IMG/VR virus record: IMGVR_UViG_3300047494_000276
Coordinates: 1 to 50,075 of that record
Strand: one strand, 5' to 3'
Length of the DNA stretch: 50,075 nt
From: a virus
The position numbers were made by a program, and so were the translations under genes. The notes under the pieces are model-generated. The model did not search any database and was not told the origin of the DNA. It saw nothing but the letters and a program-made list of their open reading frames with translations. Shown here piece after piece: positions 3,661 to 29,178 of this stretch. Each line of letters opens with the position of its first letter. Positions within the stretch are counted from its first letter, which is position 1.

Positions 3661-3674
3661 GTTACCGCCGTCAG
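3661..3674 (-). repeat. junction motif copy 1 (CTGACGGCGGTAAC)
   Basis: Perfect copy of the 14-bp word, read on the minus strand. Its TGA (3671-3673) is the stop codon of the 129-aa gene upstream. The next start codon is 56 bases further on. This junction separates the tail genes from the lysis genes. Confidence 0.9.
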
Positions 3675-4060
3675 TCCGGCGATGAGCCTGCCAGCACCGC
3701 CGCCGCGCGATCCGACGCGATGAGCGCAGCGGTTTCGAGATGCTGGACGCCCGCGATGACCATGGGATGCTGCAACGAGATCCCCGACGTGCACGCCAGC
3801 ATCAATTCCCAGAAGTCATCGACCAAAGGATCTATCGCGCGCGCGGCCCTGATCGCCAACCGCTCCGCTTGGGTGAACAGCAGCATGAACGCCGCGATCG
3901 AGAGCAGCACTGGCGCGGGAATCCAGACCCATCCCGCCCGCGCCTGATCCCATTGCGTGCCGTCCGGCTGCTCCGAGACATACTGATCATCGGTCGGCGT
4001 CGGCGCGTCGGCATAGATCGCGATCAGCGCATTGTCCGCTTTGTTGATAAGGCCCCACAT
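3671..4060 (-). CDS. tail-associated hypothetical protein, 129 aa
   Basis: It follows the big tail-tip gene with a TGATG overlap. The N-terminal half (GLINKADNALIAIYADAPTP... GWVWIPAP) resembles the short domains found after tail fibre/tip genes in many phages, often annotated as tail fibre assembly or hypothetical. The middle holds a hydrophobic stretch near residues 50-62 (VLLSIAAFMLLF), followed by helices. I cannot assign a function beyond its tail location. Its stop codon lies inside junction motif copy 1. Confidence 0.6.
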   Translation of the reverse strand: MWGLINKADNALIAIYADAPTPTDDQYVSEQPDGTQWDQARAGWVWIPAPVLLSIAAFMLLFTQAERLAIRAARAIDPLVDDFWELMLACTSGISLQHPMVIAGVQHLETAALIASDRAAAVLAGSSPD

Positions 4061-7000
4061 CAGGTCAGCTGCCTTGCTCTTGAGCCCGCCGCCACGCTGC
4101 CGGGCCCTGTGGTCTGGGTAAATGTCGCGATCGGCGTGAACACGACATCCGCGCCTGTGGAGTTCGTATAGGTGCCGGTCGCGGTCCCGTTTATGGATGG
4201 GTCGCCAGCGCCATTCGTCACCAGCACATTGTTGGTCGGGTTGCCGGTCATCAAAGATATCGTGCCGCCGTTGATCTGCTGATTTAGCTGCAACGTCATT
4301 TTGGATGCGCTGGTAGTGCCGCTCATCGTCCCCGACAGAGTGTAGGTGACGGTCTGGCCGGCCTTGACGGTGATCGACGGGAACGCGGTGTTGCCGAACG
4401 ATGTGATCACGACAGCAGGCAGGCCGCCACCCGAGCCCGAGCCATTAGAGCCAGCCGCTCCAAACGAGATCGTGGCCCTCCCTTTAAGGCCGCACTGGCC
4501 CGTGACGCCGAACGCCATGCCGGCCGTGCCTGCGCCTATGTACATCGTTGTGACGACGCCCGCCGACGTGGTTTTGGTGTAATACCAATTGCCGGAAATC
4601 GAATCGTACCGGATGCCGTAGGAATTGGTCGTGACCCAATTCTCGTAATAGACCATCGTACCGCCGAACCACACCTCAACGGGTGTCGATCCGGAGCCAA
4701 GCCCGGTGGCCGCGCCGGCGAACCTGAAGCCGCCGTCAAGGGTCGAGTAATTGAAGCTGCTATTCGGCGTCGACTCCAGGCCGATCATGATGTCGCCCGA
4801 CGTGCCATAAACGTTGGACGGCTGGATCGTCAGTTGGCAGCTTCCCGGAATATTGGGCATCGTCGAATAGGCGCCGTACCGGCCGACATTATAGCCGCCG
4901 CCGCTGGTCGCATTATCCAGCACGCCGGCATTGAACGTCATGGTGTCCGTGACCGCCATGGTGAGCGTGCCGGTTCCGGCAGCGCCAGCCGCGCCCGCTG
5001 CCCCCGCCTTCGACTTGGCGATGTTATAATTCTTCGTCACCGTGACCACGACGCCGCCGATCGTCACCTGCGCTTGGAACACGATATTGCCCTGATCCGC
5101 CGACATGGCGCTGATCGAATAGACGCCCGTGCTGCTGTTGATCGAGCCGGTGACGCCGCTCGACGACGCGATCGAATAGGACACGCCGCCGCCAGTCGTG
5201 ATGTCGGTCGTGCCGTTATACATCTTGAACGTGCCGCCGGCCGCCGAGAAGGAGGCAACCGTGCCGGAACTATCCGCCGCAACCGTCGCGCTCTCGTTGG
5301 TCAGGAGGCCCGTGATCGCATTCGAGCCCTGTTGCAGTTTCACGACGGTTTCGGTGTCGCTGAGCCCGCTCAGGGAGGCCGTGATGACGACATAGGCGGT
5401 CGCCCCGGGTGCGGTGAACTGCGCGTTGGTCAGGGTGCGGGTGTTGCCGCTGCCACCGAGCGTGACCGCGCCGAGCGAGACGCTGGACGCGTTATAGGCC
5501 GTCGCGGCCCATGTCGCGGTCCCGGTGAGGCCGCCCGCCAGATTGGCCGTGAAGGTCAGGGTCTGGCTGCTGGGCGACGCCGCGCCTGTGCTATCGAACG
5601 TCACGGTCTGCGCGGTCGAGGAAAGCGTCAGGACCGGCGCGTTGGCCCCGGCCTTGCTCTTCGAGATCGTATAGACCTTCGTATAGGTCACGCCGTTATA
5701 GGTCGCGCTCAGGGTTGCCGTCGCTTGGTCGGCGGTCAGACCGGTAACCGTGTAGGCGCCGGTCGAGGAATTGATCGAGATCGACAGCGCGGCATCATGC
5801 GAGGCGACCGCATAGCTGACCCCGCTGGTCAGCAGCGCGGAGCCCTTGAACAACTCCATCGTCCCGCCGGCATTCGAGAAGCTGGCCACGGCGCCCACAC
5901 TATCGGCCGAAACGGTCGCTGCCTCATTTGTGAGCAGCGGCGTCACGGCGTCCGATCCGTTGACCAGCCGGACCACGGTCTCGGTATCGGTCAAGCCGGC
6001 AAGGCTGACGGTCACGACCATATAGGCCGCCGCGCCGAACGCGGAGATCGGCATGACGGCGGTATTGCCGGTCACGGTCCAGCCGGGCGATGTGCTGATC
6101 ACGCCGCCGCTCGCATTGTAGAGCGTGCCGGCGAATGTCGCGGTGCCGATCGTGCCCTGGATCACGGCCGTAAAGGTGATCGATTGCCCGGCCGGATAAG
6201 CCGTGCCATCGCCGTTATAGGTGTAGGCCTGCGCGGTGGATTGCAGCGTCAGGATCGGGCCGCCGTCGCCGTCCGCGCCCGCCTTGGTGAAGGTGACGCT
6301 CTGGACCTGCGCGCCGGTCTGCTGCGCCAAGAGCAGCACCTTGAGCGGCGTGGTCGGTGCCGGAGAGTTCGGCATGGCGCCGACGTCTGTCGAATTGATG
6401 AACCCGTGCAGGACGCCGCCGACCCAGCGCAGCGAATAGACATCGCCGGGCGTGATCGCGACGTGCGTGTCAACCGTGGTGATATCCGTGGCGGGCGGAT
6501 AGCTGAAATTGTCGAGTAGCGCGGTGCCGCTCGTCGGATAGGTGTAGAGCCCCCACGCCGTGTCGGTGACCGGATCGTAGAGCCCGACGATGACGTTGTT
6601 CGTCGCCGACGTGATGACGCCCGACACTTCGGCATATTGGAGCGATTCGACAGACTGGACCGAGCCCGCGAAGCCGCCGCTCACGCTTTCGAACGAACCG
6701 CCGCCGTCCAGCTTCCATTGGTCGATGACCGGCGTCCATGCCTGTGTTCCTGCGGCATTGCGGATCGCGACCAGCAGCGGGTCATTGGCAGGATCGTAAT
6801 AGATCGGGGTGGCGGCAGTGACGGCCGCGCGATCGTCGGCGTCCCAGGCATAGATTGCCGGGTCTTCCCAGGTAAGGATCATCGGGCAGGTGCCGTCGAA
6901 CCCTGCGATCTGCTGCTCGACCCGCATCAGCTGCCGGTTGAAGCCGAGCGCCCCGATCGTGATCGGCACGATATCGCCGATCTTGTAGGACCAGCCGGCC

Positions 7001-8376
7001 ATGTTGACGACGACGCTTAGCTGGCGATCATATTGCTTACGCTCCAGCGTCTGTTTCGCCAGCCGCTGCGCCATCGCGGCATCCATGACCCAGGGCAGAT
7101 CGAGGGTGAGCACACGATCGATGCCGTCGAGGCTGTCCAGCCGGACCTCGGGATAATCGACCAGCTGATAGAGCGACGCGTCGGACGGATCGACATAGCG
7201 CCCGCGCACGACGTTGTAGCATTCCTCGAGCGACGGATCGGGATTGAGCGTCCCCTGCCCGATCATCTCGTCGTCACCGAGGCCCGGATCGGCATCGGCG
7301 AGCGCGAGGTCGTTGTGCATCACGATCAGCCCGAGCTTGCCGATCGTCTCCCGGAAGCGCCCGTTGCAGGTGGTCGCGAAGTTGGTCATCACCGTGCCGG
7401 GATCGTCGCCCTCGGATGCGACGCCGCCGCCGTGATAGCGCGGCTGCGTGCCCGTGGACGTCGTGACGGTCTCGTCGCAGAGATTGGCGGCCGTGATCCA
7501 GCCGGCGAGGTCGAGCCGGGCGGGCGACATGCCGCGTCCCACCGAGACCTTCCCGCCGATGCGCCAGCCGAGCAGCCATGTCAGCGCCTGCAGGGCGACA
7601 TTGTTCGCCAGCACATTGCTGCCGTTCTGGAATTGCCACGTCGTCTGATCGTCGGCGCGGTGCGAGCCCGAGCCGCCGGCAACCGTCGAATCCAGCCGGG
7701 GATCATAGACCGGGATGCCATCGACCCGGATCGTGATGCGGCTGTTCAGCCCTGAGGCGAACGGGCTGTTCGTGCCACCGCGATCGACGCGGATATGGAT
7801 ATAGGCGCAGCCGGTCAGGCGGCAGTTCGAGGCATTCCAGACGGTGCCGGAATTGATGCTGATCGCATTGGCCGCCGTGCCCTCGGCACGGACATCGACC
7901 GTCAGGAAACCGGCATAGCCGCTTTGAACCCCGGACGCGCTATCCCAGGCTTTGGTGTTTTCCAGCCAGATTTCGCGGATCGCGGTGACCTTATGGGCCG
8001 CGACCGCGATGATATAGTCGATGTAGCGCTGGTTATCGCCGCTGGGCTCTGTGTAGCGGATGTCCGTACCGGCCGCGACGTCCTGGCCGAAGACCATCAC
8101 GCGCGGTGTCGTCGGCACCAGCGAGGCATTGAGCCTGTCGAGCGTGGATGTCGTGACCGACGGCTTCTTGGCGAACGACGATGCGATGCCGGTCAGGATC
8201 TCGGTTGCGCCGAAGGCCAGCGCCAGACCGCCGAGCGTCGTCGTGGCGAGGAAGCCGCCGACGACTGCCCCTGTGGCGGGCAGTGTCAGGCTCGGGACCA
8301 GCGACGCGCCGCCGGTCAGGAACGCGGCGCCGATGATCACCGCGCCGATGATGATGGATTTGAGCGCCTTACCCAT
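4060..8376 (-). CDS. tail tip / host-specificity protein (gpJ-like), 1438 aa
   Basis: This central tail-tip protein follows an NlpC/P60-like gene, as gpJ follows gpK in lambda-type tails. The N-terminus has hydrophobic Gly/Ala-rich segments (residues about 8-65). Residues about 90-600 look like the conserved hub part (PRVMVFGQDVAAGTDIRY, WLLGWRIGG, YNVVRGRYVDP). From about 705 to 1125 there are two tandem Ig-like units of about 205 residues each, sharing LTNE(A/S)ATV(S/A)ADS and INSSTG(A/V)Y. A short Gly/Ala collagen-like linker near 1125 leads to a C-terminal beta-rich receptor-binding end. It is likely to set host range. Confidence 0.8.
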   Translation of the reverse strand: MGKALKSIIIGAVIIGAAFLTGGASLVPSLTLPATGAVVGGFLATTTLGGLALAFGATEILTGIASSFAKKPSVTTSTLDRLNASLVPTTPRVMVFGQDVAAGTDIRYTEPSGDNQRYIDYIIAVAAHKVTAIREIWLENTKAWDSASGVQSGYAGFLTVDVRAEGTAANAISINSGTVWNASNCRLTGCAYIHIRVDRGGTNSPFASGLNSRITIRVDGIPVYDPRLDSTVAGGSGSHRADDQTTWQFQNGSNVLANNVALQALTWLLGWRIGGKVSVGRGMSPARLDLAGWITAANLCDETVTTSTGTQPRYHGGGVASEGDDPGTVMTNFATTCNGRFRETIGKLGLIVMHNDLALADADPGLGDDEMIGQGTLNPDPSLEECYNVVRGRYVDPSDASLYQLVDYPEVRLDSLDGIDRVLTLDLPWVMDAAMAQRLAKQTLERKQYDRQLSVVVNMAGWSYKIGDIVPITIGALGFNRQLMRVEQQIAGFDGTCPMILTWEDPAIYAWDADDRAAVTAATPIYYDPANDPLLVAIRNAAGTQAWTPVIDQWKLDGGGSFESVSGGFAGSVQSVESLQYAEVSGVITSATNNVIVGLYDPVTDTAWGLYTYPTSGTALLDNFSYPPATDITTVDTHVAITPGDVYSLRWVGGVLHGFINSTDVGAMPNSPAPTTPLKVLLLAQQTGAQVQSVTFTKAGADGDGGPILTLQSTAQAYTYNGDGTAYPAGQSITFTAVIQGTIGTATFAGTLYNASGGVISTSPGWTVTGNTAVMPISAFGAAAYMVVTVSLAGLTDTETVVRLVNGSDAVTPLLTNEAATVSADSVGAVASFSNAGGTMELFKGSALLTSGVSYAVASHDAALSISINSSTGAYTVTGLTADQATATLSATYNGVTYTKVYTISKSKAGANAPVLTLSSTAQTVTFDSTGAASPSSQTLTFTANLAGGLTGTATWAATAYNASSVSLGAVTLGGSGNTRTLTNAQFTAPGATAYVVITASLSGLSDTETVVKLQQGSNAITGLLTNESATVAADSSGTVASFSAAGGTFKMYNGTTDITTGGGVSYSIASSSGVTGSINSSTGVYSISAMSADQGNIVFQAQVTIGGVVVTVTKNYNIAKSKAGAAGAAGAAGTGTLTMAVTDTMTFNAGVLDNATSGGGYNVGRYGAYSTMPNIPGSCQLTIQPSNVYGTSGDIMIGLESTPNSSFNYSTLDGGFRFAGAATGLGSGSTPVEVWFGGTMVYYENWVTTNSYGIRYDSISGNWYYTKTTSAGVVTTMYIGAGTAGMAFGVTGQCGLKGRATISFGAAGSNGSGSGGGLPAVVITSFGNTAFPSITVKAGQTVTYTLSGTMSGTTSASKMTLQLNQQINGGTISLMTGNPTNNVLVTNGAGDPSINGTATGTYTNSTGADVVFTPIATFTQTTGPGSVAAGSRARQLT

Positions 8377-8797: not shown

Positions 8798-9462
8798 AAG
8801 CTTGAATTCCGGCCGATCCCGATCGGCAGGCCGCCGCCGAGGTGGATACCACCGGCCGACACCGACGCGACGGTCGCACCGACGCCGGACTGGCCATTGG
8901 CGCATGCGATCGAGGCGGCGGCGGAGAGATCGCCGCTGTCGAACTCTGCCTGGCTCAAATAGGAACGGTTCGATGCCGCCGTCAGGAAAGCGAGGTAGCT
9001 TTCGACGTCGAGCTGGATCGTCTGGCTGGTCTTGTCGAAGACGATCTTGGGGACCGTCATATAGCCGGTGAACCACGGCCAGACCGCGCCGACCTGCGTC
9101 AGCGCTTCGTTCAATTGCAGCTGCCACAGCCGCATCACGCGGCCCTGCCAATTGGCCTTGTTGCCGATCTGGTTGAGCAAATCGGTGTCGATGCCGAGCA
9201 GGCCGGAGAGCGTGCAGGTGACGGTATCAGCCCCGCCCTCCTTCATCGTGATCGAACTGACCGAGATAAATTCCGGGTCGATCGCGGAGAAGGTATAGCC
9301 GTCGAGGTCTTCGTCGCCGGTCCCGCTGAACGTGATGCTGTATGGCGCGGTCGTGACCCGGATCGGCTCGCCGAGGATATCGAGGAAGCCGACATAGATC
9401 GGGCGAACCGGATCGGTGTACGATCGCAGCGCCGCGATGGCGGTGGGGTCAGGCCCCGACAC
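8794..9462 (-). CDS. minor tail protein (tail hub region), 222 aa
   Basis: Starts at GTG overlapping the previous TAG (TAGTG). The sequence has beta-rich features, with SITMKEGGADTVTCTLSGLLGID, WQGRVMRLWQLQLNE and a C-terminal SYLSQAEFDSGDLSAAASIACANGQS-like region. Its place between the tape measure module and the NlpC/P60-like protein is that of distal tail/hub proteins (lambda gpL region or DUF2163-like). I do not recognise a precise family, so the role rests mostly on context. Confidence 0.65.
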   Translation of the reverse strand: MSGPDPTAIAALRSYTDPVRPIYVGFLDILGEPIRVTTAPYSITFSGTGDEDLDGYTFSAIDPEFISVSSITMKEGGADTVTCTLSGLLGIDTDLLNQIGNKANWQGRVMRLWQLQLNEALTQVGAVWPWFTGYMTVPKIVFDKTSQTIQLDVESYLAFLTAASNRSYLSQAEFDSGDLSAAASIACANGQSGVGATVASVSAGGIHLGGGLPIGIGRNSSF

Positions 9463-10055: not shown

Positions 10056-10090
10056 GACGCCGCGCAAGGTGCGCGCGGGGGCATGGGGTC

Positions 10091-10104
10091 GTTACCGCCG
10101 TCAG
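10091..10104 (-). repeat. junction motif copy 2 (CTGACGGCGGTAAC)
   Basis: Perfect 14-bp copy on the minus strand. Its TGA (10101-10103) is the stop of the 85-aa gene. The next start lies 23 (TTG) or 35 (ATG) bases downstream. Confidence 0.9.
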
Positions 10105-10358: not shown

Positions 10359-10362
10359 GTCT

Positions 10363-14032: not shown

Positions 14033-14036
14033 GGTC

Positions 14037-14750
14037 CTACGCGACGTTGAGGTTCGTGGTCGAGACCCGAGGCGTGTTCGAGGCGCCGGTCAGCGTCTCG
14101 GTCAGCGTGATCTTGGGCGTTCCGGCGGCCGTGAACGTGCCCGCAATCGTTCGGGTGGCGCCCGTTCCGGACACGGTCAGGGCCGTTGCGTCGCTGGACG
14201 TGGCGGTCAGGGTCGAGCCGGTCGTGCAGCCCGAAACCGTTCCCGTATAAGCAACCGCATGGGTCGCGGTGCGCGGCGTCAGCGTCAGCTGGTCAAGCAC
14301 GATGATGTCGGCGCCAGGCGTCCAGACAACCGGGCCGTCCGAGGCGAAGGTCAGCTGCGAGGTGACATAGGTGCCGTCGGCGGCGCCGATCTGCTTGTTC
14401 GTCAGGACGAACTTGCCCTGATAATAGCCCGAATCCACAACGTCGCTGGCGTCTTCGCCCATGATGAAGCGATACGGGAGCGAGATGCCGCCAAGTTGGC
14501 GCAGGAGGTCGCCCTGGGCGCGATTGTAGAGGCCGTTGCCCGCGATATCGAACTGAGAGCCGGTCACGTTGACGACGCGAGCCGGAATGTTGGTCGGGTC
14601 CGCGCAATCGCGGATATACTCGTCCGAGGTCTGATATTGCTCGGTCAGGTTCCGGGTCGTGAGACCGCAAAGCGACGTGAAGGTCGTGCTGTTATCGAGG
14701 CTGACCGCGACATCGAAATAAGTGCCTTTGACGATCGACGGGACGGACAT
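14037..14750 (-). CDS. major tail tube protein with C-terminal Ig-like domain
   Basis: 237 residues with AGGAG 8 bases before the ATG. Residues 1-145 fit a tail tube (TYFDVAVSLDNSTTFTSLCGLTTRNL, ISLPYRFIMGEDASDVVDSGYYQGKFVLTNK). Residues about 150-237 form a Ser/Thr-rich bacterial Ig-like domain (LTLTPRTATHAVAYTGTVSG... TATSSDATALTVSGTGATRTIAGTF), the common surface decoration of tube proteins. Position before the chaperones supports the call. Junction motif copy 3 lies 51 bases upstream. Confidence 0.85.
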   Translation of the reverse strand: MSVPSIVKGTYFDVAVSLDNSTTFTSLCGLTTRNLTEQYQTSDEYIRDCADPTNIPARVVNVTGSQFDIAGNGLYNRAQGDLLRQLGGISLPYRFIMGEDASDVVDSGYYQGKFVLTNKQIGAADGTYVTSQLTFASDGPVVWTPGADIIVLDQLTLTPRTATHAVAYTGTVSGCTTGSTLTATSSDATALTVSGTGATRTIAGTFTAAGTPKITLTETLTGASNTPRVSTTNLNVA

Positions 14751-14801
14751 TGGGCGCGCTCCTGAATTTGAACGCGAAACTATGGGCGGTCAGATGCCCT
14801 C

Positions 14802-14815
14802 GTTACCGCCGTCAG
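14802..14815 (-). repeat. junction motif copy 3 (CTGACGGCGGTAAC)
   Basis: Perfect minus-strand copy. Its TGA (14812-14814) ends the DUF3168-like gene. The tail tube ATG lies 51 bases further on, after its own AGGAG, so the motif is not that gene's ribosome site. Confidence 0.9.
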
Positions 14816-16371: not shown

Positions 16372-16826
16372 GGGCAATTCCAGACCGGCAACGGCCCCGC
16401 AAAGCCGTTGAACCCGGCATTGCACCCAAGCACCCGGCCGCCGCCGACGACCCTTGTGCCGCCCTTGTTCTTCTGCAGGAGCATCGAATATTCGAGGCCA
16501 TAGGGTGTCGAGGCATATCCACCCGCGACCGCGACCTTGATCGCCTCGTCAGAGAAGCGCAGCTGCACCGACGCGGAGCGGAAATCGGCCACGCCGGCCG
16601 CGACCATGGCGGCTTCGTTAGATCCTGCGATCCCCGCGATCCTGTTCGTCGCCATGTTGTGCGCGGCCATCGCGATCAGCGCCGGGGCGTAATCGTCCTC
16701 AAGCCAGGACTGATCGACGTAGCGCTGCGCGTCGGTCAGCCAATATTGGATCGTGTCAGGATCGACCGCGGCGAACGCGGGGTAGCGCCGGATCAGGTCG
16801 TCGGGCGTGGGGGCATCGTAGGCCAT
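16368..16826 (-). CDS. DUF4054 head-tail adaptor
   Basis: 152 residues; MAYDAPTPDDLIRRYPAFAAVDPDTIQYWLTDAQRYVDQSW is the hallmark N-terminus of the DUF4054/gp6-type adaptor that binds below the portal. The helical bundle (residues 1-90) is followed by a Gly-rich tail with FSDEAIKVAVAGGYASTPYGLEYSMLLQKNKGG. I used the ATG at 16826; an ATG 15 bases upstream is possible. It is the first connector gene after the plus-strand moron, with junction motif copy 4 lying 30 bases upstream of its start. Confidence 0.82.
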   Translation of the reverse strand: MAYDAPTPDDLIRRYPAFAAVDPDTIQYWLTDAQRYVDQSWLEDDYAPALIAMAAHNMATNRIAGIAGSNEAAMVAAGVADFRSASVQLRFSDEAIKVAVAGGYASTPYGLEYSMLLQKNKGGTRVVGGGRVLGCNAGFNGFAGPLPVWNCP

Positions 16827-16856
16827 GAGGGCTTGTCGCATTGCGGCGTTGGCGCA

Positions 16857-16870
16857 GTTACCGCCGTCAC
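16857..16870 (-). repeat. junction motif copy 4, one mismatch (GTGACGGCGGTAAC)
   Basis: Same word with the first base changed. No minus-strand gene ends here: the neighbouring sequence to the right is the plus-strand acyltransferase moron. The motif therefore survives without the stop codon function. It lies at the left edge of the moron and 30 bases before the DUF4054 start. Confidence 0.8.
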
Positions 16871-17092: not shown

Positions 17093-17097
17093 CCATC

Positions 17098-18197: not shown

Positions 18198-20996
18198 TCA
18201 AAGGCTGGCGTAGTGGGCGGCGCGTTCCAGATCGGCCGCCGCCAATGCGGAGGTCGTATCGTCGATCTGTGTGAAGTGATTCCAGATTCCTTGGGAGGGC
18301 ACGCCGGAAGGAATGCCAAGAAACCCGTCATTGAAGATGCACAGCACCTCGGCGTAAGCAGCGATATCGTTGATCATCTGCGTCTCGATCGCGCCCACGT
18401 GCGAAGCGGGATCAAGACCTTCCCACCAATTTACCAGATCGGTCTGAACGCTGGTGGTCCATGTCCCTGCGACCGATGGGCCGAATTCGTAAGACCAGCA
18501 CTGCGCGGGCACGTTTCTGCCGATCTTGTCGAGGAAATATTGGAACCGCTGGCGTGCCGTCAGAAGCCATGGGCCCGCACCCGCCACGGCAGCGGCGGAT
18601 ATCTGGCTGTCGATTACCGCTATACGGGCCGACCCGGCCGTCGCCGCGCTCACGGCGCTCGCGTTTGTGATGCCAGGATATGGCGCGCAGGCGATGGCAT
18701 CGCAGACGTTTGCCCAACAATCGGTGCCACCGGCCGTCTGGGTGAACAGCATCGCGATATAATCGAAATCGCCCGTTCCGGGCACGGTCGATGTCGTGGT
18801 CTGCGCGTTGTGCGCTACCTTCAGGCGAGGGGAGGCCGCCTTGCACGCGACGGTGAAGTTATAGCATTGCACGCCATGTTCTCGTGCCCAGCCCAGTTCG
18901 CCCGCGACGATGAAGGTAAATTGCGAGTTGCTGCCCATGGCAGCGGGCAGTTGGTCCGTCGTGGCTGTCGTCGTGTTTACCAGCCAGATGCCGAGATAGG
19001 TGTACCCGCTCTGATACGCCGCGATGTAGTCGCCCGCTGGAATAACGGCGCCCAAGCCCCCGCCAGGAACACCGGTCGTGTAGAAATGCCAGTGGTTCGG
19101 GTCCACAGGTCCGCCGCGGCCGTCGCCAAAGTTGCGACCGGCGAGCGCACCCTTGACGAGAAACGCCGTCTTGTCGGCTAATATGCCGCCCCAATCCTCG
19201 TTGAACCAATCCGCATGGATCGTCAGTATTCGCGGATCGAGGTTGGCTTCCATGTAAGCGACGAACTTGGCGGTCTCGGTCGCCGTCGCGTTATAGCCGG
19301 CGCAAATCCACGGGTAGGCAAGCGTGCGGTTGCAAAGCTCGACCAAAGCTTCGACGTCGAATCCCCAATGGAACCTGTTGGTGAAATTGAGCCAGTTGCC
19401 GCCATTGTTCGTGTTGATCTGATCCATGAAGCGGATAACTTGGAAGCGGCTGTAGTGGGCAACCGCTGCGGCACCCCAGATCAGACCCGACGTGTCACCC
19501 CGCTTCCGCATCGAATAGTAACCAGCGTGCGAGAGGAACGAAGCCTTGTCGATTATGAAGTAAGTATTTTGCAGGGATAGGTTAGTCGGAACGTTGATCG
19601 TGTGCACACCGGTCGTCGGGTTAGACGTGAAGGTAAACCCCGCTGCCGCTGCCCCGCCGTTTAAATTCATGGTGATCTTCTGACCGGGGGGCATGATCAG
19701 ATCGCGCAGACCGCAATCGTCAGGGTGCGGGTACCACGGCAGCACAATATATATGCTGGTCGCATCCGACGGATAAACGATCAATTGGCCTTGTTGATTG
19801 ACGATGCCGTTCGCGTAGAGGGTCGGCATATCCATGCCGCCGTATGTGCCACCGTTTATCTGGATCGAGCACCTGCGCGCCCAATCGAGGAAATATCCAT
19901 CCTTAACGGTGTAGTAGGAGAAGGCCCCGGAGTTTATCCCAAGCTTCGGCTTGCCGTGATAGGCGGTGCGGAATTTGGTGAATATCGAACTATCCCCGGG
20001 GACATTGGTCTTCCATGCGGCGATCCTGGTGTAAATGCCTTCCGACACCAAAGGCACAGAGCTGGCCGATTGCGCTGTCCATGTCTTCTTGGTCGTATCG
20101 ACGACCAGATTGGTCATCTGCTCATCGGATATGGTGATTACGCCCGAGGCGAGATCCGACATCTGCAGTGTGATCCCGGTCGGCGCGGTGCCGACATAGC
20201 CCCCGAAAAGCTGGACCATCTGGCCGCCATTGCCATCGGAAATGGGTTGCCCATAGAACACGGTGAGATTGGAGACCGCCGTCGGCGTGACCCTGATCCG
20301 CGCGTCCAGCGCTACGTTCAGCGCCGTGTTGAACGAGTTGGCGTACCCGATATAAAATCCGCTCGGGTCATAAGCCGCTAGCGGCGTCAGATCCCACACG
20401 TAGGGCACGCCGTTGACATCGACCCAGAGGATGCCGTCGAACGAGACGGTCAGGCGCTTATTCGCAAAATCGCAGTTGAGCGTGATGCTCGTGGACCAGC
20501 TCGGAAAATTCGGGTTTGCGCTCGCCGAACCGCCCAATATCGTGATCGATCCGCCGGTGCGCACATCGGCCGTGATCAGATTGTTTATCGTCAGGCCCGA
20601 ACTGTTGCAGACGACGATCGAGCGGCGATTGGCGCTTGCCCCATCGAATTCAGCTGTGAAGTTTCCGACGCCAACCTTCTTGACGAAGTTTCCAACTGCC
20701 TGGCCCGGCCTGGTCAGTTGCTGCACCGCGCCGGCCACGATGGCCATGTTGGGCGCGATCAGGCTGCCGAGAAAGGAATCGTAGAAGTGCCCCTTGCACG
20801 ATCCCCATGCCTGCCATCCCGTCAATCCGCCCGCAGCATTGGCCGCCTGTTGCGATACATCGGTGTAGATATCGACCGTGTAGCTTGAGCAGAGCGGCGT
20901 ATTATCCGGATAGATCGAGAAATCGTCCAAGAATATGTCATTCGCAGCTGCGCTGTTTTTTGAGCGACGCCGAAATGCTCTGCCTGCGAATGACAT
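18198..20996 (-). CDS. tail spike/fibre with glycoside hydrolase-like barrel, 932 aa
   Basis: The N-terminal half (about 20-480) is beta-rich, with a laminin/concanavalin-like look around residues 110-240. The C-terminal half resembles a TIM-barrel glycosidase: WGFDVEALVELCNRTLAYPWICAGY (about 535-560) and HADWFNEDWG, where Glu600 follows Asn as in clan GH-A acid/base residues. QCWSYEFGPS follows, with Glu837 in a nucleophile-like position. The probable role is a virion depolymerase cleaving host surface polysaccharide. It lies between the capsid genes and the acyltransferase moron, outside the usual tail-fibre position. Confidence 0.65.
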   Translation of the reverse strand: MSFAGRAFRRRSKNSAAANDIFLDDFSIYPDNTPLCSSYTVDIYTDVSQQAANAAGGLTGWQAWGSCKGHFYDSFLGSLIAPNMAIVAGAVQQLTRPGQAVGNFVKKVGVGNFTAEFDGASANRRSIVVCNSSGLTINNLITADVRTGGSITILGGSASANPNFPSWSTSITLNCDFANKRLTVSFDGILWVDVNGVPYVWDLTPLAAYDPSGFYIGYANSFNTALNVALDARIRVTPTAVSNLTVFYGQPISDGNGGQMVQLFGGYVGTAPTGITLQMSDLASGVITISDEQMTNLVVDTTKKTWTAQSASSVPLVSEGIYTRIAAWKTNVPGDSSIFTKFRTAYHGKPKLGINSGAFSYYTVKDGYFLDWARRCSIQINGGTYGGMDMPTLYANGIVNQQGQLIVYPSDATSIYIVLPWYPHPDDCGLRDLIMPPGQKITMNLNGGAAAAGFTFTSNPTTGVHTINVPTNLSLQNTYFIIDKASFLSHAGYYSMRKRGDTSGLIWGAAAVAHYSRFQVIRFMDQINTNNGGNWLNFTNRFHWGFDVEALVELCNRTLAYPWICAGYNATATETAKFVAYMEANLDPRILTIHADWFNEDWGGILADKTAFLVKGALAGRNFGDGRGGPVDPNHWHFYTTGVPGGGLGAVIPAGDYIAAYQSGYTYLGIWLVNTTTATTDQLPAAMGSNSQFTFIVAGELGWAREHGVQCYNFTVACKAASPRLKVAHNAQTTTSTVPGTGDFDYIAMLFTQTAGGTDCWANVCDAIACAPYPGITNASAVSAATAGSARIAVIDSQISAAAVAGAGPWLLTARQRFQYFLDKIGRNVPAQCWSYEFGPSVAGTWTTSVQTDLVNWWEGLDPASHVGAIETQMINDIAAYAEVLCIFNDGFLGIPSGVPSQGIWNHFTQIDDTTSALAAADLERAAHYASL

Positions 20997-21007
20997 GATC
21001 TTATGCT

Positions 21008-22216
21008 TTACTGATACAGAACGTTGAGGGCGACCACATCACCTGCGGTGAGCGCGGTAGTGTCGTTGTCGTTTGCAGCACCGGTCACCGCGATCGCCAG
21101 GCCCGTTCCCAGATAGTACGGCGACGGCAGCGTCATCGTCGTGCGGGCCGTTGGTGGCAGTGCGATCGTCAGAACCGGCGTGTCAGTTCCGACTGTAGCA
21201 GGCGAAGCCTTGTTGTAAATCTTGAGAAATTTAACGCTCGCAGACGTATTGTATGCTTCGACTTGAAATACTTCAGCCGAACTGGTCTTGCAACTCGTCG
21301 AGTTGGTGCTCGCCGCAGCGCTGACGATCCGGCAGGCGGCATTCGGAATCTTTAAACGATCCCATCCTGAACCAGTATAATTTGATGGGGCGACTGCCAG
21401 AAGACCTTGCGCAACGCCATCATTACGAGCGACTTGAACAATGTTGGATGTATTTGAAACGTTGTCGGCGCCTGGCGTATTTGCCGCGGAAATGGCGACC
21501 TGCAAGAAGCCTTTTGCATTTATCTGCAATTCATTTCGCGCACCCGCTGGAACCGTTGGGGCCGTAGAGTTGTAGGTTCCGCCGACAGGAACGGGATTCC
21601 CGGCCGCCGTAGCGAGGGAGGCGACCGGCCCCGTGACGACGCGACTAGCTCCCGCGGCAGTGTTGGTCGCGATCGTCGCAAGATTGCCGCCCGTTTCCAG
21701 CGCTGCGCCCGTCGGTAGCGCCGAGGACTTGACCACGACGCCGTTGGTCGTGCCCTGCGTCGTCTGGTCGATCGTGACCGGGCTGGACGAGCCGCTGATC
21801 TGATTGAGGAGCTGCGCCTTGGCGATGCTCATGAAAGACGGGTTGGAGAACACGCCATCCCAAGGGGTATCAGCAGGCGTGCCGAAGGTCGGGTAGGAGC
21901 TGATATTGACAGACGGGGTGCCGACGAACTTGGTGATCGTGCGGAGATCGCCGGTCAGCGTCATGGAGAGCGGGGATGTCGTGCTGCCCTCGGTGTAGGA
22001 CGGCGCTGCCGCAGTGCTGGTGGCGGAAACCGAGCCGCCACCGCCCCCGCCGCCGCCCCCACCGCCCGCGACATAAGTGCCGGTCTGATCGACCGTGATG
22101 ACCGGCGTCGCCTCGATCGGCTGACCCGCGCTGTTTTTCACAACCGGCGCCTGCACGACGGCCGCCATAGAAAGGGTCGGCACCAGTGCCAGGAGCATCA
22201 TAAAGCGGCGGGTCAT
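21008..22216 (-). CDS. putative exported/structural protein with poly-Gly linker, 402 aa
   Basis: Starts at the ATG at 22216 (a TTG three bases upstream is less likely) with AGGA 7 bases before it. Residues 1-22 (MTRRFMMLLALVPTLSMAAVVQA) look like a signal peptide. Eleven consecutive Gly follow at 51-61. The Ser/Thr-rich remainder contains ISSYPTFGTPADTPWDG, SALPTGAALETGGNLATIATNT and a C-terminal beta domain ending GDVVALNVLYQ; such SALPTGA-type stretches occur in phage virion or fibre proteins. A signal peptide on a virion protein would be odd, so it might be a secreted phage product. It follows a terminator-like hairpin. Confidence 0.55.
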   Translation of the reverse strand: MTRRFMMLLALVPTLSMAAVVQAPVVKNSAGQPIEATPVITVDQTGTYVAGGGGGGGGGGGSVSATSTAAAPSYTEGSTTSPLSMTLTGDLRTITKFVGTPSVNISSYPTFGTPADTPWDGVFSNPSFMSIAKAQLLNQISGSSSPVTIDQTTQGTTNGVVVKSSALPTGAALETGGNLATIATNTAAGASRVVTGPVASLATAAGNPVPVGGTYNSTAPTVPAGARNELQINAKGFLQVAISAANTPGADNVSNTSNIVQVARNDGVAQGLLAVAPSNYTGSGWDRLKIPNAACRIVSAAASTNSTSCKTSSAEVFQVEAYNTSASVKFLKIYNKASPATVGTDTPVLTIALPPTARTTMTLPSPYYLGTGLAIAVTGAANDNDTTALTAGDVVALNVLYQ

Positions 22217-22233
22217 CAATCGGTCCTTTCGCG

Positions 22234-22269: not shown

Positions 22270-22294
22270 AGTCGGTCCCTTGGAGGGGGAGAGG

Positions 22295-22717: not shown

Positions 22718-22719
22718 GA

Positions 22720-23676: not shown

Positions 23677-23691
23677 CGTCGTGATCCCCTC

Positions 23692-24156: not shown

Positions 24157-24170
24157 GATCCTGACCTCCC

Positions 24171-24734
24171 TTAAGCTTCGGCGGTCTTCGGCGCGGTCTT
24201 CCACGCCTGAGACAGTTCGTTGCGGCTCTTGGCGCGCGCATCGAGATATTCGGATCGGGCGTCGCCCAGGCTGACCGGCTGGCCGGTGATCGCGCTCGCC
24301 AGCGCATCCACCGCCTCGACCTTCACATCGGCGGTCAGCGAAGCGAACGACGCGGCATATTGCGCGTCATTCCAGCCCTGCGCCTTGTCGCCGAGCTTCT
24401 TGTCCACGACCGCCTTCATGATGGCCGTCTCGTCCATCGCGTCCGTGACGGTGATGCCCAGCACCTTCGCCTTGCCGGCGGTCTGCGCATAGGCCTTGGC
24501 GGCATCGCGAAGCTGCGCCGGGGTCGGCTTGCTGTCGATCAGCTGCTGCTCGAGCGTGGTGATCTTGGCGTCGGCGGTGGCCTTGTCCGTGGTCAGGGTC
24601 GCGACCTGGGTTTCCAGATCGCCGATCTTAACCTTGAAGCCGTCGCGCGCCGCGAGGATCGTCGCGATCGTCGCCTGTGCCGTGTCGGCATTCGAGATAT
24701 CGACGGTGAGCCCGTCAATGAGCATGGTCTTCAC
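24171..24734 (-). CDS. possible nested scaffold protein from internal start
   Basis: Inside the protease gene, AGGAG (24741-24745) lies 6 bases before an in-frame GTG at 24734 (VKTMLIDGLTVD...), exactly at the junction between the protease and the scaffold half. Independent initiation there would give a 187-residue scaffold, as with lambda Nu3 nested in gene C. An ATG three codons later is an alternative. The nesting is inferred from the site and domain boundary only. Confidence 0.5.
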   Translation of the reverse strand: MKTMLIDGLTVDISNADTAQATIATILAARDGFKVKIGDLETQVATLTTDKATADAKITTLEQQLIDSKPTPAQLRDAAKAYAQTAGKAKVLGITVTDAMDETAIMKAVVDKKLGDKAQGWNDAQYAASFASLTADVKVEAVDALASAITGQPVSLGDARSEYLDARAKSRNELSQAWKTAPKTAEA

Positions 24735-25334
24735 GGGCTTCTCCTGTGTGTGAAGGCTGTCGAGAAAGGATTGAGGCGCGGCGTCGCAGTGCGCGGCGTC
24801 ACCGATGCGGCAGCTGGGTCCAGCGCGGCCGAGATCGACACGGGCCACATGATTGCCGGAGATTGCGTCTTGGCGTGCCTGGCACCTGGTGCCATCTGCC
24901 GCTGCGTAATCGCCGAACTGCAAGCTCGCGTCGTAGCCGTTCGAAAGCTGAACCTTGCCTGCCTCGGTGTCGGCGATCGCGGCCGCGTCCATGAGGAGAA
25001 GATCGAAAGCGAGATGGTCACCATCGCGGATCGCGCCCATGACGACGCCGTCCGCATATTTCTTCCAGTTGGTGGCGTTCACCGCCTCGCGTGGGTGATC
25101 GTTGGTGATCGGCTTGCCGATGAAGCTCCGCACGGCTCGCTCATCGAAGACGGCGGCCTCGTCGCGCAGCACATTCACGACTGCTTGGTCGCGAAGGCCA
25201 TGTTCATTGTTCGGATCGACTTCGCTGCCAGCGTATTGATAGACGCCAGCCCGCGCAGCGCGCGCCCGCACGGCCATATAGCCGTCTGCGGTGCGGCGAG
25301 GCTTATCGAGCGTCAGGCCATCGGCGAAGTACAT
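24171..25334 (-). CDS. DUF2213 capsid maturation protease fused to scaffold
   Basis: 387 residues. The N-terminal 190 match DUF2213 proteases: GYMAVRARAARAGVYQYAGSE, FIGKPITNDHPREAVNATNW, LSNGYDASL and ISGNHVARVDLGRAGPSCRIGDA, whose NHVA motif carries the likely catalytic His and is followed by RAGP. The C-terminal half is a helical, charged scaffold (LETQVATLTTDKATADAKITTLEQQL). Such fusions process the prohead and are usually self-cleaved. Junction motif copy 5 lies 33 bases upstream of the ATG. Confidence 0.82.
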   Translation of the reverse strand: MYFADGLTLDKPRRTADGYMAVRARAARAGVYQYAGSEVDPNNEHGLRDQAVVNVLRDEAAVFDERAVRSFIGKPITNDHPREAVNATNWKKYADGVVMGAIRDGDHLAFDLLLMDAAAIADTEAGKVQLSNGYDASLQFGDYAAADGTRCQARQDAISGNHVARVDLGRAGPSCRIGDAAHCDAAPQSFLDSLHTQEKPVKTMLIDGLTVDISNADTAQATIATILAARDGFKVKIGDLETQVATLTTDKATADAKITTLEQQLIDSKPTPAQLRDAAKAYAQTAGKAKVLGITVTDAMDETAIMKAVVDKKLGDKAQGWNDAQYAASFASLTADVKVEAVDALASAITGQPVSLGDARSEYLDARAKSRNELSQAWKTAPKTAEA

Positions 25335-25367
25335 GGCGGCATGATTTGCCGCGCGCTGGTGCGCATC

Positions 25368-25381
25368 GTTACCGCCGTCAG
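25368..25381 (-). repeat. junction motif copy 5 (CTGACGGCGGTAAC)
   Basis: Perfect minus-strand copy, but here the upstream gene stops at a TAG (25395-25397) 14 bases earlier in another frame. The motif is therefore kept without serving as the stop codon. The next ATG is 33 bases downstream. Confidence 0.9.
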
Positions 25382-25394
25382 CGCGCGGACTTGG

Positions 25395-26120
25395 CTACGC
25401 CTTGATAACCCAAGCATCGGTCGCGAGATCAGCGGACGCCAGATACGCGGCGGGCAGGTAGAAATACCCGTTATCGCCCCAGTCCGTGTTCCACGAATTG
25501 CGCACGATGTAATGCCCATCGCTGGTATAGCCGACGACGCAGATCGCGTGCCCGCCGACCGTCTTCTCGCTCTTGCCCGGCATCGGCACCTTGCCCGTCT
25601 GTGCGACGGCATCGCTTTCGAAGCTCTCATAGACCGTGATGCCGACGACGAACGGTGATCCGCTGGCGAGGCAATCCATGTAATCGGCAGGGCCGTTGAG
25701 CCGCTGGTAGGTCTTGATCAGGTCGGTCTTGGCGTCCGCCGTCGCCTTGGCCGGGGGTGCCTTCGCGAACTTCGACGGCACGTAAGGCCAATCGGCTTCC
25801 GGCGGCAGGCCGAGCGATGCCAGGATCTTGATCCCGTCGCGGATTTCGGCGCCGCCGTCGGTCTTGATGTCGCCCTCGACCTTGCGTTCCTGGTAATACA
25901 GCCACAGCTGCGAGCCCTCGAATCCGTTATGCAGGAACGCCATCGCGCCGGTCAGCGCGAACGCGGTGCAGCTGCCAAGCTGGCCCTGATCCCAGCATGG
26001 CGGGAATTTCGAGCGGAGATCGACGGACTTGGGCTGCGGCGCGCCGGTGCGGGTGTAGGCATAATCGCGGATGTCGCCGAGGTCGGGACGGTAGCCGTAG
26101 CGGGCAATCTTGCGGGTCAT
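25395..26120 (-). CDS. papain-like (C1) cysteine protease in the head module
   Basis: 241 residues from the ATG at 26120, with AGGAG 6 bases upstream; longer frames upstream lack this. The full catalytic set of family C1 is present: Gln and Cys in DQGQLGSCTAFALTG (near residues 45-60), His in VGGHAICVVGY (about 195-205), and Asn in RNSWNTDWGDNGYFYLP (about 212-228). DLRSKFPPCWDQG is the usual start of the mature fold. There is no signal peptide or long propeptide, so it would act in the cytoplasm or in the capsid. Its place between head morphogenesis and prohead protease genes suggests a role in head processing or as injected protein. Confidence 0.85.
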   Translation of the reverse strand: MTRKIARYGYRPDLGDIRDYAYTRTGAPQPKSVDLRSKFPPCWDQGQLGSCTAFALTGAMAFLHNGFEGSQLWLYYQERKVEGDIKTDGGAEIRDGIKILASLGLPPEADWPYVPSKFAKAPPAKATADAKTDLIKTYQRLNGPADYMDCLASGSPFVVGITVYESFESDAVAQTGKVPMPGKSEKTVGGHAICVVGYTSDGHYIVRNSWNTDWGDNGYFYLPAAYLASADLATDAWVIKA

Positions 26121-26169
26121 AGGGCGCTCCTTGGTCAGGAGCGCGAATTGCGCTTGGGCTGGACGCCGA

Positions 26170-26183
26170 GTTACCGCCGTCAG
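26170..26183 (-). repeat. junction motif copy 6 (CTGACGGCGGTAAC)
   Basis: Perfect minus-strand copy. TGA at 26180-26182 ends the head morphogenesis gene; the protease ATG lies 49 bases downstream behind its own AGGAG site. Confidence 0.9.
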
Positions 26184-27025
26184 TCGAACAGCGGCTCTTC
26201 CCAGCATTTGCAGAACGGCAGGACGCCGGCGCGGTCGTTCGGCGCCCGATCTTCCCGATATACCTTCCCGTCGCGGGCGAGATGATCATCGCGGGGATGC
26301 TGTTGCGGTGTGTGATGCCAGCGAAAACGGGCCAGGCCGGCAGCAGCGCGGCGGGCGCGATCGAGCGCGGCCGATGTCTTGTCGGTCTGATCGACGCCGA
26401 TGTTCGCCGCGCGCTTGCGCGCCTTCGTGATCACGGTGTTGAAATCGGCTTCCGCTTGCGATGCGGGCTTGATCGCGGCGAGACCGCCCAGCAGCGCCGC
26501 GGCGATCTTGTGGCCTGTCTCCTGGTGCAGCGATGTAGCGAGTTGCTGATTCCAGGTGAGCGCGTTCGCGAGCTCGGGCTTCGCGGCGGCCGGTGAATTG
26601 AGCAGCGACACATCGATACCGGTCGCGGTCTTGATCCGGGCATTCCATTGCGCGCGGTGCCAGACCTCAAGCCGGTCCAGCGCGGCTGCAAGCTGGTTTT
26701 GGATGCCGGGCAGGCTTTGCCCCAGCCGCGCCGCCGATTGGTCGATCTGGCGCTGCAGGATGGCCGAATTGCCGGTATCGCGTGCGATCGCATAGGCGCG
26801 CATGATCAGATCGCGTTCGGCCGCCCATTGGCGCGTGAGCGTGAAATACGGAGCCGCGATGCCCGATCGCATCGCCTCGGTCGGATCGATACGGCGGAAG
26901 GCGCGCGGACGAGCCTTGGCCATGCGGATCATGCCCGGCAGATCGTAGCGCTGGCCGGTGAGGTAGAGCGCCAGGCCGGTGGCGAGCGCCGCGTTGCGAC
27001 TAGTGTTGTCGGGCTGGCTGGCCAT
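26180..27025 (-). CDS. phage head morphogenesis protein (Mu gpF / SPP1 gp7-like)
   Basis: 281 residues from ATG 27025; GTG at 27043 is an alternative in the same frame. The helical N-terminal two thirds are typical of minor capsid proteins. The C-terminus RFRWHHTPQQHPRDDHLARDGKVY...PFCKCWEEPLFD is the conserved gp7/gpF signature (W-x-T-x(2,4)-D...R..H...G...P-F-C.C). These proteins bind the portal and enter the procapsid. It ends in junction motif copy 6 and starts after a hairpin-rich gap. Confidence 0.88.
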   Translation of the reverse strand: MASQPDNTSRNAALATGLALYLTGQRYDLPGMIRMAKARPRAFRRIDPTEAMRSGIAAPYFTLTRQWAAERDLIMRAYAIARDTGNSAILQRQIDQSAARLGQSLPGIQNQLAAALDRLEVWHRAQWNARIKTATGIDVSLLNSPAAAKPELANALTWNQQLATSLHQETGHKIAAALLGGLAAIKPASQAEADFNTVITKARKRAANIGVDQTDKTSAALDRARRAAAGLARFRWHHTPQQHPRDDHLARDGKVYREDRAPNDRAGVLPFCKCWEEPLFD

Positions 27026-27061
27026 CAGTTGAAACCGGAGCACAAAGCAAATATATCAATC

Positions 27062-27141
27062 GTGAGCGCCGCCGTGCTTCGGGCGTAATCGGTCACGGGA
27101 CCGTCGGAAACGACGGGGCATGTTGGCCCAGCGGCGCTCAC
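27062..27141. repeat. nested inverted repeats in portal / head-morphogenesis gap
   Basis: GTGAGCGCCGC (27062-27072) and GCGGCGCTCAC (27131-27141) are perfect 11-bp inverted arms; the right arm contains the portal stop. Between them lie GGTC-ACGG-GACC (27091-27102) and CCGTCG-GAAA-CGACGG (27101-27116), the latter with a GNRA-type loop on the plus strand. No gene lies here and no T-run follows, so it is not a standard terminator. Confidence 0.7.
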
Positions 27142-29132
27142 TTTTTCCTCATTGATTTCAACGCCACGATCTGGCCGCCCCTGACCTGCTCGGTATAGGT
27201 ATATTCGTGAGCGCCGACTCGTGCCGTGTAGTTTAGCCGCAAGCCCTTGCCGCTCGACCGCGATCCTTGCGCCGTGATCGTATGCGCGTTGCCGACGATC
27301 TCGTTGATCCTGCCGAAATCACTCTTCTCGATCGCGACCTGGCCGCGCCTTGCCTCGATCGCAGGATCGCCGTGCGACTTCATGGCATGCCGGATTTCCG
27401 AACTTCCGACGATGCGCTCGTGACCGGCGATGTCGATGCCGGTGTGCTGCAATACGGCGCTGGCATTCGCGTGCGACACCTGGCCCAGACTCGTGGCGCG
27501 ATGTGATCCGCGCTCGGTCAGCGCCTCTTCGACATGTTCGGCTAGACCGCCAGTCCACTTCCCATCCGGCCCACGCGGCTCGTCGGGATTGAACCCATCG
27601 TCAAAAGGGCGGCTCGACCCATCGTCCACCTCCTCGACCAGCACCCAGCGCTTGCGTCCGTCGTTCGCCGCCGTCGCGGCGCCCGGCTGCTTGATGGTCG
27701 GCAGGCGTCCCAGCGCCGTGGCGGGCACCAACGGGTCGCTGCCCTGAACCGCTTCCAGATCATCAGGCCCGGGCGGCGACAGCGACGGAAACCGCTCGTC
27801 CTCGGGCAGTTCGGCGAGCGCGCCGTCGAGACCTGACAGCCATTGTTCCTCGACCGCCGTGTGCTGCACCGCCTTCTCGAATGCGATCGTCGGGATGACG
27901 TTCATCGCCTCAAGCGCCGCGATGCCCTCCACACGGTTCTTGAAGATGGTCGATTTGTCGAGCTCCGACATCTCCTGCAGCGGCGGGAAATCGTACCAGG
28001 CCTCGTCCGTCACCTCGACGCCAGCGCTCGGCAGCATCACGGCGTCCAACTGATCGAGTGCCGGCCGGAGATAGGCATCCTGATCGGCGCGAATCTTGGC
28101 GATATAGTTGCTCTCGTCCCCGGTGCCGGTCGCGTTCATGCCGTCCGGCGACTTGCCGAGGAAGCGTGTGGCCGGGATATCGAACGCGCCCGCGACGGCC
28201 GCCGCGTAGACGCGGATCATGTCGGGCATGCCGGTCCATGTGACCTGGCGCGTGTCCCATTCCTCGCCGGGACTATCCTTGCCCTTGCCGCCGTCGAGAA
28301 TCCGGGTGTTGTGGGTCGATTTCAGCGCATTGGCGACCTGCACGCGCCTCGTGACCAGCTGCTCGCCCTCCGTGGTCGCCAGCGTGGCCGTGAGCCCCGG
28401 AATGCTGACCGTATCGAGCTTCGCTTCCTCGATCAGCGACGCGAAGCCGTTCATGGCGGCATCGGCGTTGCGCACCGCATCGTGCGCCGAGACCAGCACG
28501 CTATCGCCCCAAAACCAGTCGTCGCCGCTGGTGCCGCGCAGGTTCGGTCGTGGCTTGCCCTTGAACGTGATCACGCGCGACGGATGGATCGTGACCTGTT
28601 GCGCGCCGGCCTTGCCGAAGTTGATGCGATAGAACGAAGGCTGGCAGAATAGCGGATCATCAGGATCGGTCACGATCGGCCCGAGCGTGACTTGCCAGCG
28701 GTTCATGACGTGGAGGTATTTGAGCCCCGCCGCGCCGACGGTCTCTTGCGCGAGCGGGATCGTCGGATCGGTGCCGACGCCCATGACGATCAGGCCGCCA
28801 CCGAGACGGCCGAGCGTCAGCGCCTCGCGCAACTTGGTCCAGACCTGCAGGCGCTTTTCCTCAGCCTCGATCTTGGTGACGTCGGCCTCGTCCAGCTGCC
28901 AATCCCGGCGCGCGCGGGTCATGTCGAACGGCGGCAGATCGACGCCCTTCTGCACGAACCAAGACGATCGATACGATGCCTCGATCTGCTCGGGCAGCAT
29001 GAACGGCTGGGTGTAGAACCCGTAGGTGCGCTTGTCGGCGGTCGTGCCGGCGCCGGACACCAGATTGGCGAGGCCGTCTCTCAGCGGCGCATCGATGACG
29101 AACCGTCCACGGTGATCACGACGCTGGCCCAT
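27138..29132 (-). CDS. DUF1073 portal protein with C-terminal BECR-type nuclease domain
   Basis: 664 residues. About 35-480 is the DUF1073-type portal (IEASYRSSWFVQKGVDLPPFDMTRARRDWQ, ALTLGRLGGGLIVMGVG, AGAFDIPATRFLGKSPDGMNATGTGDESNY). A linker with FNPDEPRGPDGKWTGG (about 512-527) leads to a domain at about 555-664. EIRHAMKSHGD, IEKSDFGRINEIVGNAHTI and YTYTEQVRGGQIVALKSM there fit the phage-Barnase-EndoU-ColicinE5/D-RelE-like (PBECR) nuclease families. The portal forms the DNA channel. The extra domain may be delivered or used against rivals, which is inference. Confidence 0.82.
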   Translation of the reverse strand: MGQRRDHRGRFVIDAPLRDGLANLVSGAGTTADKRTYGFYTQPFMLPEQIEASYRSSWFVQKGVDLPPFDMTRARRDWQLDEADVTKIEAEEKRLQVWTKLREALTLGRLGGGLIVMGVGTDPTIPLAQETVGAAGLKYLHVMNRWQVTLGPIVTDPDDPLFCQPSFYRINFGKAGAQQVTIHPSRVITFKGKPRPNLRGTSGDDWFWGDSVLVSAHDAVRNADAAMNGFASLIEEAKLDTVSIPGLTATLATTEGEQLVTRRVQVANALKSTHNTRILDGGKGKDSPGEEWDTRQVTWTGMPDMIRVYAAAVAGAFDIPATRFLGKSPDGMNATGTGDESNYIAKIRADQDAYLRPALDQLDAVMLPSAGVEVTDEAWYDFPPLQEMSELDKSTIFKNRVEGIAALEAMNVIPTIAFEKAVQHTAVEEQWLSGLDGALAELPEDERFPSLSPPGPDDLEAVQGSDPLVPATALGRLPTIKQPGAATAANDGRKRWVLVEEVDDGSSRPFDDGFNPDEPRGPDGKWTGGLAEHVEEALTERGSHRATSLGQVSHANASAVLQHTGIDIAGHERIVGSSEIRHAMKSHGDPAIEARRGQVAIEKSDFGRINEIVGNAHTITAQGSRSSGKGLRLNYTARVGAHEYTYTEQVRGGQIVALKSMRKK

Positions 29133-29164
29133 GGCCGGAAAATACGGGCGTTGCCGCGCGCGCG

Positions 29165-29178
29165 GTTACCGCCGTCAG
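29165..29178 (-). repeat. junction motif copy 7 (CTGACGGCGGTAAC)
   Basis: Perfect minus-strand copy. TGA at 29175-29177 ends the terminase large subunit gene and the portal ATG lies 32 bases downstream. It is the most promoter-proximal copy; none was seen upstream of it in the replication genes. Confidence 0.9.

Follow-up and report, generated by a model that had tools for sequence, protein, structure and literature searches.

The stretch of DNA analysed here (the window) comprises an entire IMG/VR virus record with a length of 50,075 bases and harbors a temperate siphophage. Genes for an integrase, a CI-like repressor, RecT and an exonuclease are encoded on the plus strand, and the minus strand carries the genes for terminase, portal, protease, capsid, tail, fibre and endolysin. 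A 14-base word, TGACGGCGGTAAC, occurs in six exact copies (positions 3661, 10091, 14802, 25368, 26170 and 29165), and a seventh copy at 16857, GTGACGGCGGTAAC, has one mismatch. All seven are located on the minus strand and within the virion and lysis region. They correspond to the seven minus-strand copies given in a preliminary description of this DNA, which had also found the replication and right-arm genes free of copies, as is the case. The search that it had proposed, using the 14-mer at up to two mismatches on both strands, resulted in nine matches in the window compared with a mean of 0.40 in shuffled sequence (largest number 2), which supports its claim that the repetition exceeds chance. 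Besides the seven copies, the search returned one match at 8972 within a gene and one at 999 on the other strand, both of which look like chance occurrences. The copies and the genes relevant to their interpretation are the following:

29165..29178, minus strand: putative upstream promoter box, exact; before the portal gene (start 29132, predicted leaderless; -10-like GTATTT at 29140-29145)
26170..26183, minus strand: putative upstream promoter box, exact; before the papain-like peptidase gene (start 26120, leader with GGAG; -10-like CAATTC at 26145-26150)
25368..25381, minus strand: putative upstream promoter box, exact; before the head maturation protease / major capsid operon (start 25334, predicted leaderless; -10-like CAAATC at 25343-25348)
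16857..16870, minus strand: putative upstream promoter box, one mismatch; before a virion structural gene (start 16826, predicted leaderless; -10-like GACAAG at 16832-16837)
14802..14815, minus strand: putative upstream promoter box, exact; before the major tail protein gene (start 14750, leader with AGGAG; putative -10 TAGTTT at 14777-14782)
10091..10104, minus strand: putative upstream promoter box, exact; before the distal tail protein and fibre genes (start 10055, 36 bases past the box, predicted near-leaderless; -10-like CACCTT at 10066-10071)
3661..3674, minus strand: putative upstream promoter box, exact; before the gene 3107-3604 ahead of the endolysin gene (start 3604, leader with GGAG; -10-like TAGCAC at 3636-3641)
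30793..31329, minus strand: candidate activator of the late genes, from a family of small helix-turn-helix proteins with ~75 conserved N-terminal residues; immediately precedes the terminase genes
30484..30789, minus strand: probable small terminase subunit ORF directly before the large subunit; assigned by position only, without a profile match
29175..30506, minus strand: terminase large subunit; TGA stop inside the first putative promoter box
27138..29132, minus strand: portal protein; its gene directly follows the first box
24171..25334, minus strand: head maturation protease; anchor gene for lining up the putative promoters across relatives
14037..14750, minus strand: major tail protein; second anchor gene

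Additional genes were noted in the window. A papain-family cysteine protease gene (PF00112; 25395-26120, minus strand) is situated between the copies at 26170 and 25368, and no homologue of it was found in the relatives searched. An O-antigen acetylase-like acyltransferase gene (PF01757; 16900-18162, plus strand) is inserted in opposite orientation inside the late region and is likely a lysogenic-conversion gene. Two large minus-strand ORFs between the capsid and connector genes (18198-20996 and 21008-22219; 932 and 403 aa) gave no Pfam or PHROGs match. At the left end, an SRAP-domain (SOS response associated peptidase) gene (205-843, plus strand) perhaps represents host flank or phage cargo. 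The product of 32097-32591 (minus strand) looks by eye like a GNAT/Mom-like DNA modification protein, with no Pfam match.

Position of the copies at gene junctions

As noted previously, the TGA of the word is the stop codon of the upstream minus-strand ORF in five of the seven copies (ORFs ending at 3671, 10101, 14812, 26180 and 29175) and not in the other two. At 25368 the upstream ORF ends slightly earlier with TAG, and the copy at 16857 is without an adjacent upstream gene on its own strand, its neighbour being the plus-strand acyltransferase gene. Since this copy is located between the virion gene start at 16826 and the divergent acyltransferase gene, it can serve only the downstream gene. 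The word was correctly described as asymmetric, strand-specific, tied to gene junctions and conserved as nucleic acid rather than as coding sequence.

The distance to the next start codon had been reported as a continuous range of 23 to 56 bases. A start codon is indeed found downstream, with a Shine-Dalgarno sequence in three copies; the continuous range is replaced by distances of 31, 33, 34 and 36 bases from the end of GTAA in four copies and of 50, 52 and 57 bases in three. Each of the three copies with a far start shows a Shine-Dalgarno sequence of the GGAG/AGGA type, so that two spacing classes can be distinguished: leaderless-type copies at 29165, 25368, 16857 and 10091, and leadered-type copies at 26170, 14802 and 3661.

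Diverging words in related phages

Relatives of the window phage were obtained by a terminase search, which yielded one close contig (G001), and by a search with the major capsid protein, which yielded 44 loci. Contig G001 carries degenerate copies of the word in the same orientation. Several of the relatives contain the word, always in sense direction, with five exact copies and seven at one mismatch in L135, three exact copies in L132 and five copies at one mismatch in L115. L135 and L132, whose exact copies are located at gene junctions, are distant relatives.

When the regions preceding the genes for the head maturation protease and the major tail protein were aligned, homologous junctions proved to carry different words in the same place and on the same strand, depending on the phage: ACGGCGGTAA, CGTCCGTAGAG, CCGCCGTAATC, GAGGGGTATAAA and CGAACCTACAGC. 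Each of them recurs throughout the late region of its own phage. The densest example of the element is contig G011 (locus L119) with 11 sense and no antisense occurrences of GAACCTACAGC. Over 22 contigs, the phage's own word was counted 111 times in sense and 4 times in antisense direction, a count which describes rather than tests the repetition, the word classes having been defined in the very contigs counted; the strand contrast of foreign words serves as control, and words of other phages occurred 11 times in sense and 17 times in antisense direction. As the sequences show, at least five dialects of the word have arisen among the phage lineages, with an unchanged layout.

None of the words was found as a repeated element in Rhizobium phage RHph_TM3_3_3 (L219) or in the relatives L122-L127 and L143-L146. 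The latter two groups are distant relatives with similar capsid genes, several of which have Shine-Dalgarno-like sequences before the protease gene. A related prophage region in the sphingomonad replicon of Novosphingobium sp. RL4 (L218) contains one ACGGCGGTAA and a variant, GCGCGGTAAA, before the protease gene (25673-25682).

A two-box layout in register with start codons

Across the 22 viral contigs, a -10-like TANNNT element is present about 20 bases downstream of the word. Anchoring 111 sites on the word gave T at offset 21 in 42%, A at offset 22 in 74% and T at offset 26 in 44% of the sites. In the window alone this signal is weaker, with T at the first position in two of the seven boxes and A at the second in six. 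Sigma-A promoters of Zymomonas mobilis, which belongs to the Sphingomonadales, consist of TTGNNN and TANNNN elements and have a 6-base discriminator; some transcripts of this organism are leaderless (PMC7566282). The TANNNN -10 element is recognizable over the 111 sites. A TTGNNN -35 element 17 bases upstream of the -10 is absent, and its position is occupied in every class by the end of the word (GTAAC, GTAG), the word being placed at about -44 to -32. Applying the 6-base discriminator of the Zymomonas mobilis model (PMC7566282), the +1 is expected at offset 33 and hence on the ATG. The sole named host among the relatives of the window phage examined here is Novosphingobium (L218).

The start codons agree with this expectation. 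ATG is found at offsets 31-34 in 80 of 126 non-redundant sites, compared with about 1-2 per position elsewhere. Among 117 non-redundant sites, 82 have a start codon at 31-36, where the +1 is expected, and the other 35 have a start further downstream. A Shine-Dalgarno sequence (GGAG, AGGA or GAGG) precedes the start in 2 of the 82 leaderless-type and 28 of the 35 leadered-type sites, the latter proportion and the contrast being inflated by the choice of the far start with the best Shine-Dalgarno sequence in the leadered class. In the leaderless-type sites the start codon is in register with a predicted +1, and a Shine-Dalgarno sequence is almost always absent. On the simplest reading, most such promoters would give rise to leaderless mRNAs and the rest to mRNAs with a short leader and a Shine-Dalgarno sequence. 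In Caulobacter, 375 leaderless transcripts have been described, and leaderless mRNAs are common and well translated (PMC4117421).

The A of the -10 box keeps its offset from the word in both groups, being present in 60 of the 82 leaderless-type and 26 of the 35 leadered-type sites, which means that the position of this box goes with the word rather than with the start codon. This bears on the idea that the word is an RNA-level signal in one long late transcript, acting in processing, translational coupling or ribosome recruitment other than by Shine-Dalgarno pairing. Such a signal would suit the set distance to the starts and the fact that five of the seven copies overlap a stop codon. However, a -10-like box tied to the word is difficult to reconcile with it, as are the copy at 16857 with no adjacent upstream gene on its strand, the dispensability of the TGA overlap and the replacement of the word by other words in relatives. 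We regard this explanation as quite improbable.

A repressor-bound, stoperator-like silencer which holds the late genes of the prophage off would account for an asymmetric, strand-oriented word at gene junctions of a temperate phage with a CI-like repressor. Such a silencer requires neither a fixed -10 partner nor a fixed distance to the start, both of which are present, and the copies are confined to the late region; its probability is therefore judged to be very low. Marginally lower still is our estimate for a recombination joint between gene modules. The copies do border exchangeable genes, with the papain-like peptidase gene between 26170 and 25368 and the acyltransferase gene abutting 16857, but a -10 signal and a start-codon register are not expected of a joint, and lineage-specific words would hinder homologous exchange. 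The peptidase gene between two copies is also consistent with genes entering the late region together with a promoter, and modules may be exchanged in this manner.

The roles considered in the preliminary description (silencer, RNA processing or translation-coupling signal, recombination joint) are thus disfavoured by the fixed-spacing -10-like partner box and by the fixed distance to starts lacking a Shine-Dalgarno sequence in the relatives. A fixed-spacing partner, a fixed start distance and an association with the downstream gene that is kept even at 16857 fit a promoter. With considerable confidence, we interpret the word as the putative upstream half of a family of two-box late promoters preceding blocks of virion and lysis genes, often with the predicted +1 at the start codon. 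Promoter activity, leaderless translation and lateness are what we infer from this arrangement.

A candidate activator and a proposed mechanism

A host-type -10 element without a TTG-type -35 implies that recognition must come from a factor which reads the 12-13 bp word. Most likely, this factor would be a phage-encoded activator at the site of the sigma -35 contact; the dependence on an activator is deduced from the missing -35 box together with the lineage-specific words. Alternatively, the word could serve as -35 element for a sigma factor, either a dedicated one of the phage or an alternative one of the host, with GGTAAC at -35 and CATAG at -10. Its AAC end and the 17-base spacing are reminiscent of ECF-type promoters, and the -10 and spacing suit any factor of the sigma-70 family. 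Yet sigma region 2/4 domains (PF04542, PF04545, PF08281) were found neither in the window nor in common to the motif-bearing phages, with one match above the cut-off in G010 only, and with a host sigma factor, the presence of at least five words in related phages would be hard to account for. A sigma factor is consequently considered unlikely, although less so than the explanations discussed above, and an activator is preferred.

The most widespread non-structural gene family across 14 near-complete motif-bearing genomes encodes a helix-turn-helix protein. A member was detected in all 21 motif-bearing loci covering the region (one of which, G025, has only one leaderless-type site) and in none of 59 loci without the motif, an association that is confounded by descent and by the definition of word classes largely in phages carrying this gene. 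The match of the family profile in G004 was weak (4e-9). Based on genome position and co-occurrence, this protein is the best candidate for the activator. We estimate as about even the chances that this helix-turn-helix protein, whose gene immediately precedes those of the terminase, is indeed the activator. For the window protein (30793-31329), the AlphaFold model has a confident helical core with a helix-turn-helix (block-mean pLDDT of 90 or more for residues 11-70). Its best structural neighbours are DNA-binding domains of the LuxR/NarL (GerE) type at weak scores (Z 2.8-4.0), and the fold search gave no strong match. The window protein had no Pfam or PHROG match, and the proteins of relatives had only weak matches to unrelated or unknown families. 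The helix-turn-helix tree was not closer to the word class than structural genes (7 changes vs 4 on the portal tree), and the recognition helices are alike in the window phage, G008 and G011 although their words differ. In the Novosphingobium relative (L218) the layout is similar and the helix-turn-helix gene was not detectable.

Two other candidates were discarded. A GcrA-like cofactor as common regulator had weak matches below the cut-off in G002 and G011 only, and a gene of 180 residues beside the helix-turn-helix gene in many relatives is missing from the window and from five other near-complete genomes.

In the proposed mechanism, the activator would bind to the word in place of the sigma -35 contact, with a host-type -10 (A at -11 strongest) about 20 bases downstream. 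At most copies, transcription would start at the ATG or within about two bases of it and yield leaderless mRNAs; at the remaining copies it would start some 20 bases ahead of a gene that has a Shine-Dalgarno sequence. The seven putative promoters would divide the minus-strand late region into separately started transcripts. The words would probably be read by a previously undescribed, virus-encoded activator. As a wider and tentative hypothesis, to which we give somewhat less than an even chance, undescribed small helix-turn-helix activators encoded beside the terminase genes of alphaproteobacterial temperate siphophages may redirect the host RNA polymerase to many late promoters, replace the -35 contact, drive mostly leaderless virion mRNAs and drift into distinct dialects, with late modules being compatible only within a dialect.

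The results provide a first map, amenable to testing, of how the late genes are controlled in a little-studied group of phages with sphingomonad-like hosts. If the interpretation is true, most late transcripts of these phages would be without a leader or Shine-Dalgarno sequence, an uncommon condition for virion genes. The parallel promoter words, set in a common frame, would constitute a natural experiment on the co-evolution of activator and site, and the set of dialects also bears on the question whether promoter dialects limit module exchange between phages. Furthermore, gene starts can be corrected, since the repeated word marks the likely start codon of many structural genes.

Comparison with known late control systems

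In phages of Gram-positive hosts, the late activators RinA, ArpU and LtrC are encoded just before the terminase genes. The candidate protein shares with them the genome place, the nature of a small, here predicted, DNA-binding protein and, as proposed, the late genes as target. In contrast to them, it shows no detectable sequence relation (no Pfam match), and many target promoters are proposed here where theirs is mainly one. Mycobacteriophage stoperators and start-associated sequences are asymmetric, oriented and located at gene junctions. The likeness to start-associated elements drawn in the preliminary description was apt, but sequence and host are different, and the -10 partner and the start-codon register of the present element point to a promoter.

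P2-like phages such as Smp131 possess late promoters with the dyad TGT-N12-ACA, which are activated by the zinc finger protein Ogr (PMC3931495). Several separate late promoters in one temperate phage and a small phage-encoded activator, here a candidate, are common to both systems. The dyad TGT-N12-ACA is not found in the window word, which is asymmetric. Furthermore, Ogr is a zinc finger, whereas the candidate is a helix-turn-helix protein whose N-terminal domain is without cysteine (compared with CX2CX22CX4C in the Ogr type); leaderless starts are predicted for the most part, and different lineages have different words. With the sigma-A promoters of the Sphingomonadales, represented by Zymomonas mobilis (PMC7566282), the element shares the TANNNN -10 and, as predicted here, the 6-base discriminator and the occurrence of leaderless transcripts; it differs from them in the 12-13 bp word in place of the TTGNNN -35. 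A few leaderless SigA-like promoters are known from mycobacteriophages, for instance of Cluster O, whose 17-bp repeat is palindromic and not thought to act in transcription initiation (PMC4351075). These are a few ordinary SigA promoters and do not include a repeated dedicated late element.

A literature search for the 14-mer and for late promoters of sphingomonad phages found neither. As far as searched, no system compared here unites an asymmetric word with lineage-specific dialects and with late transcription that is leaderless for the most part, as predicted here. We class the putative promoters with the activator-type phage late promoters.
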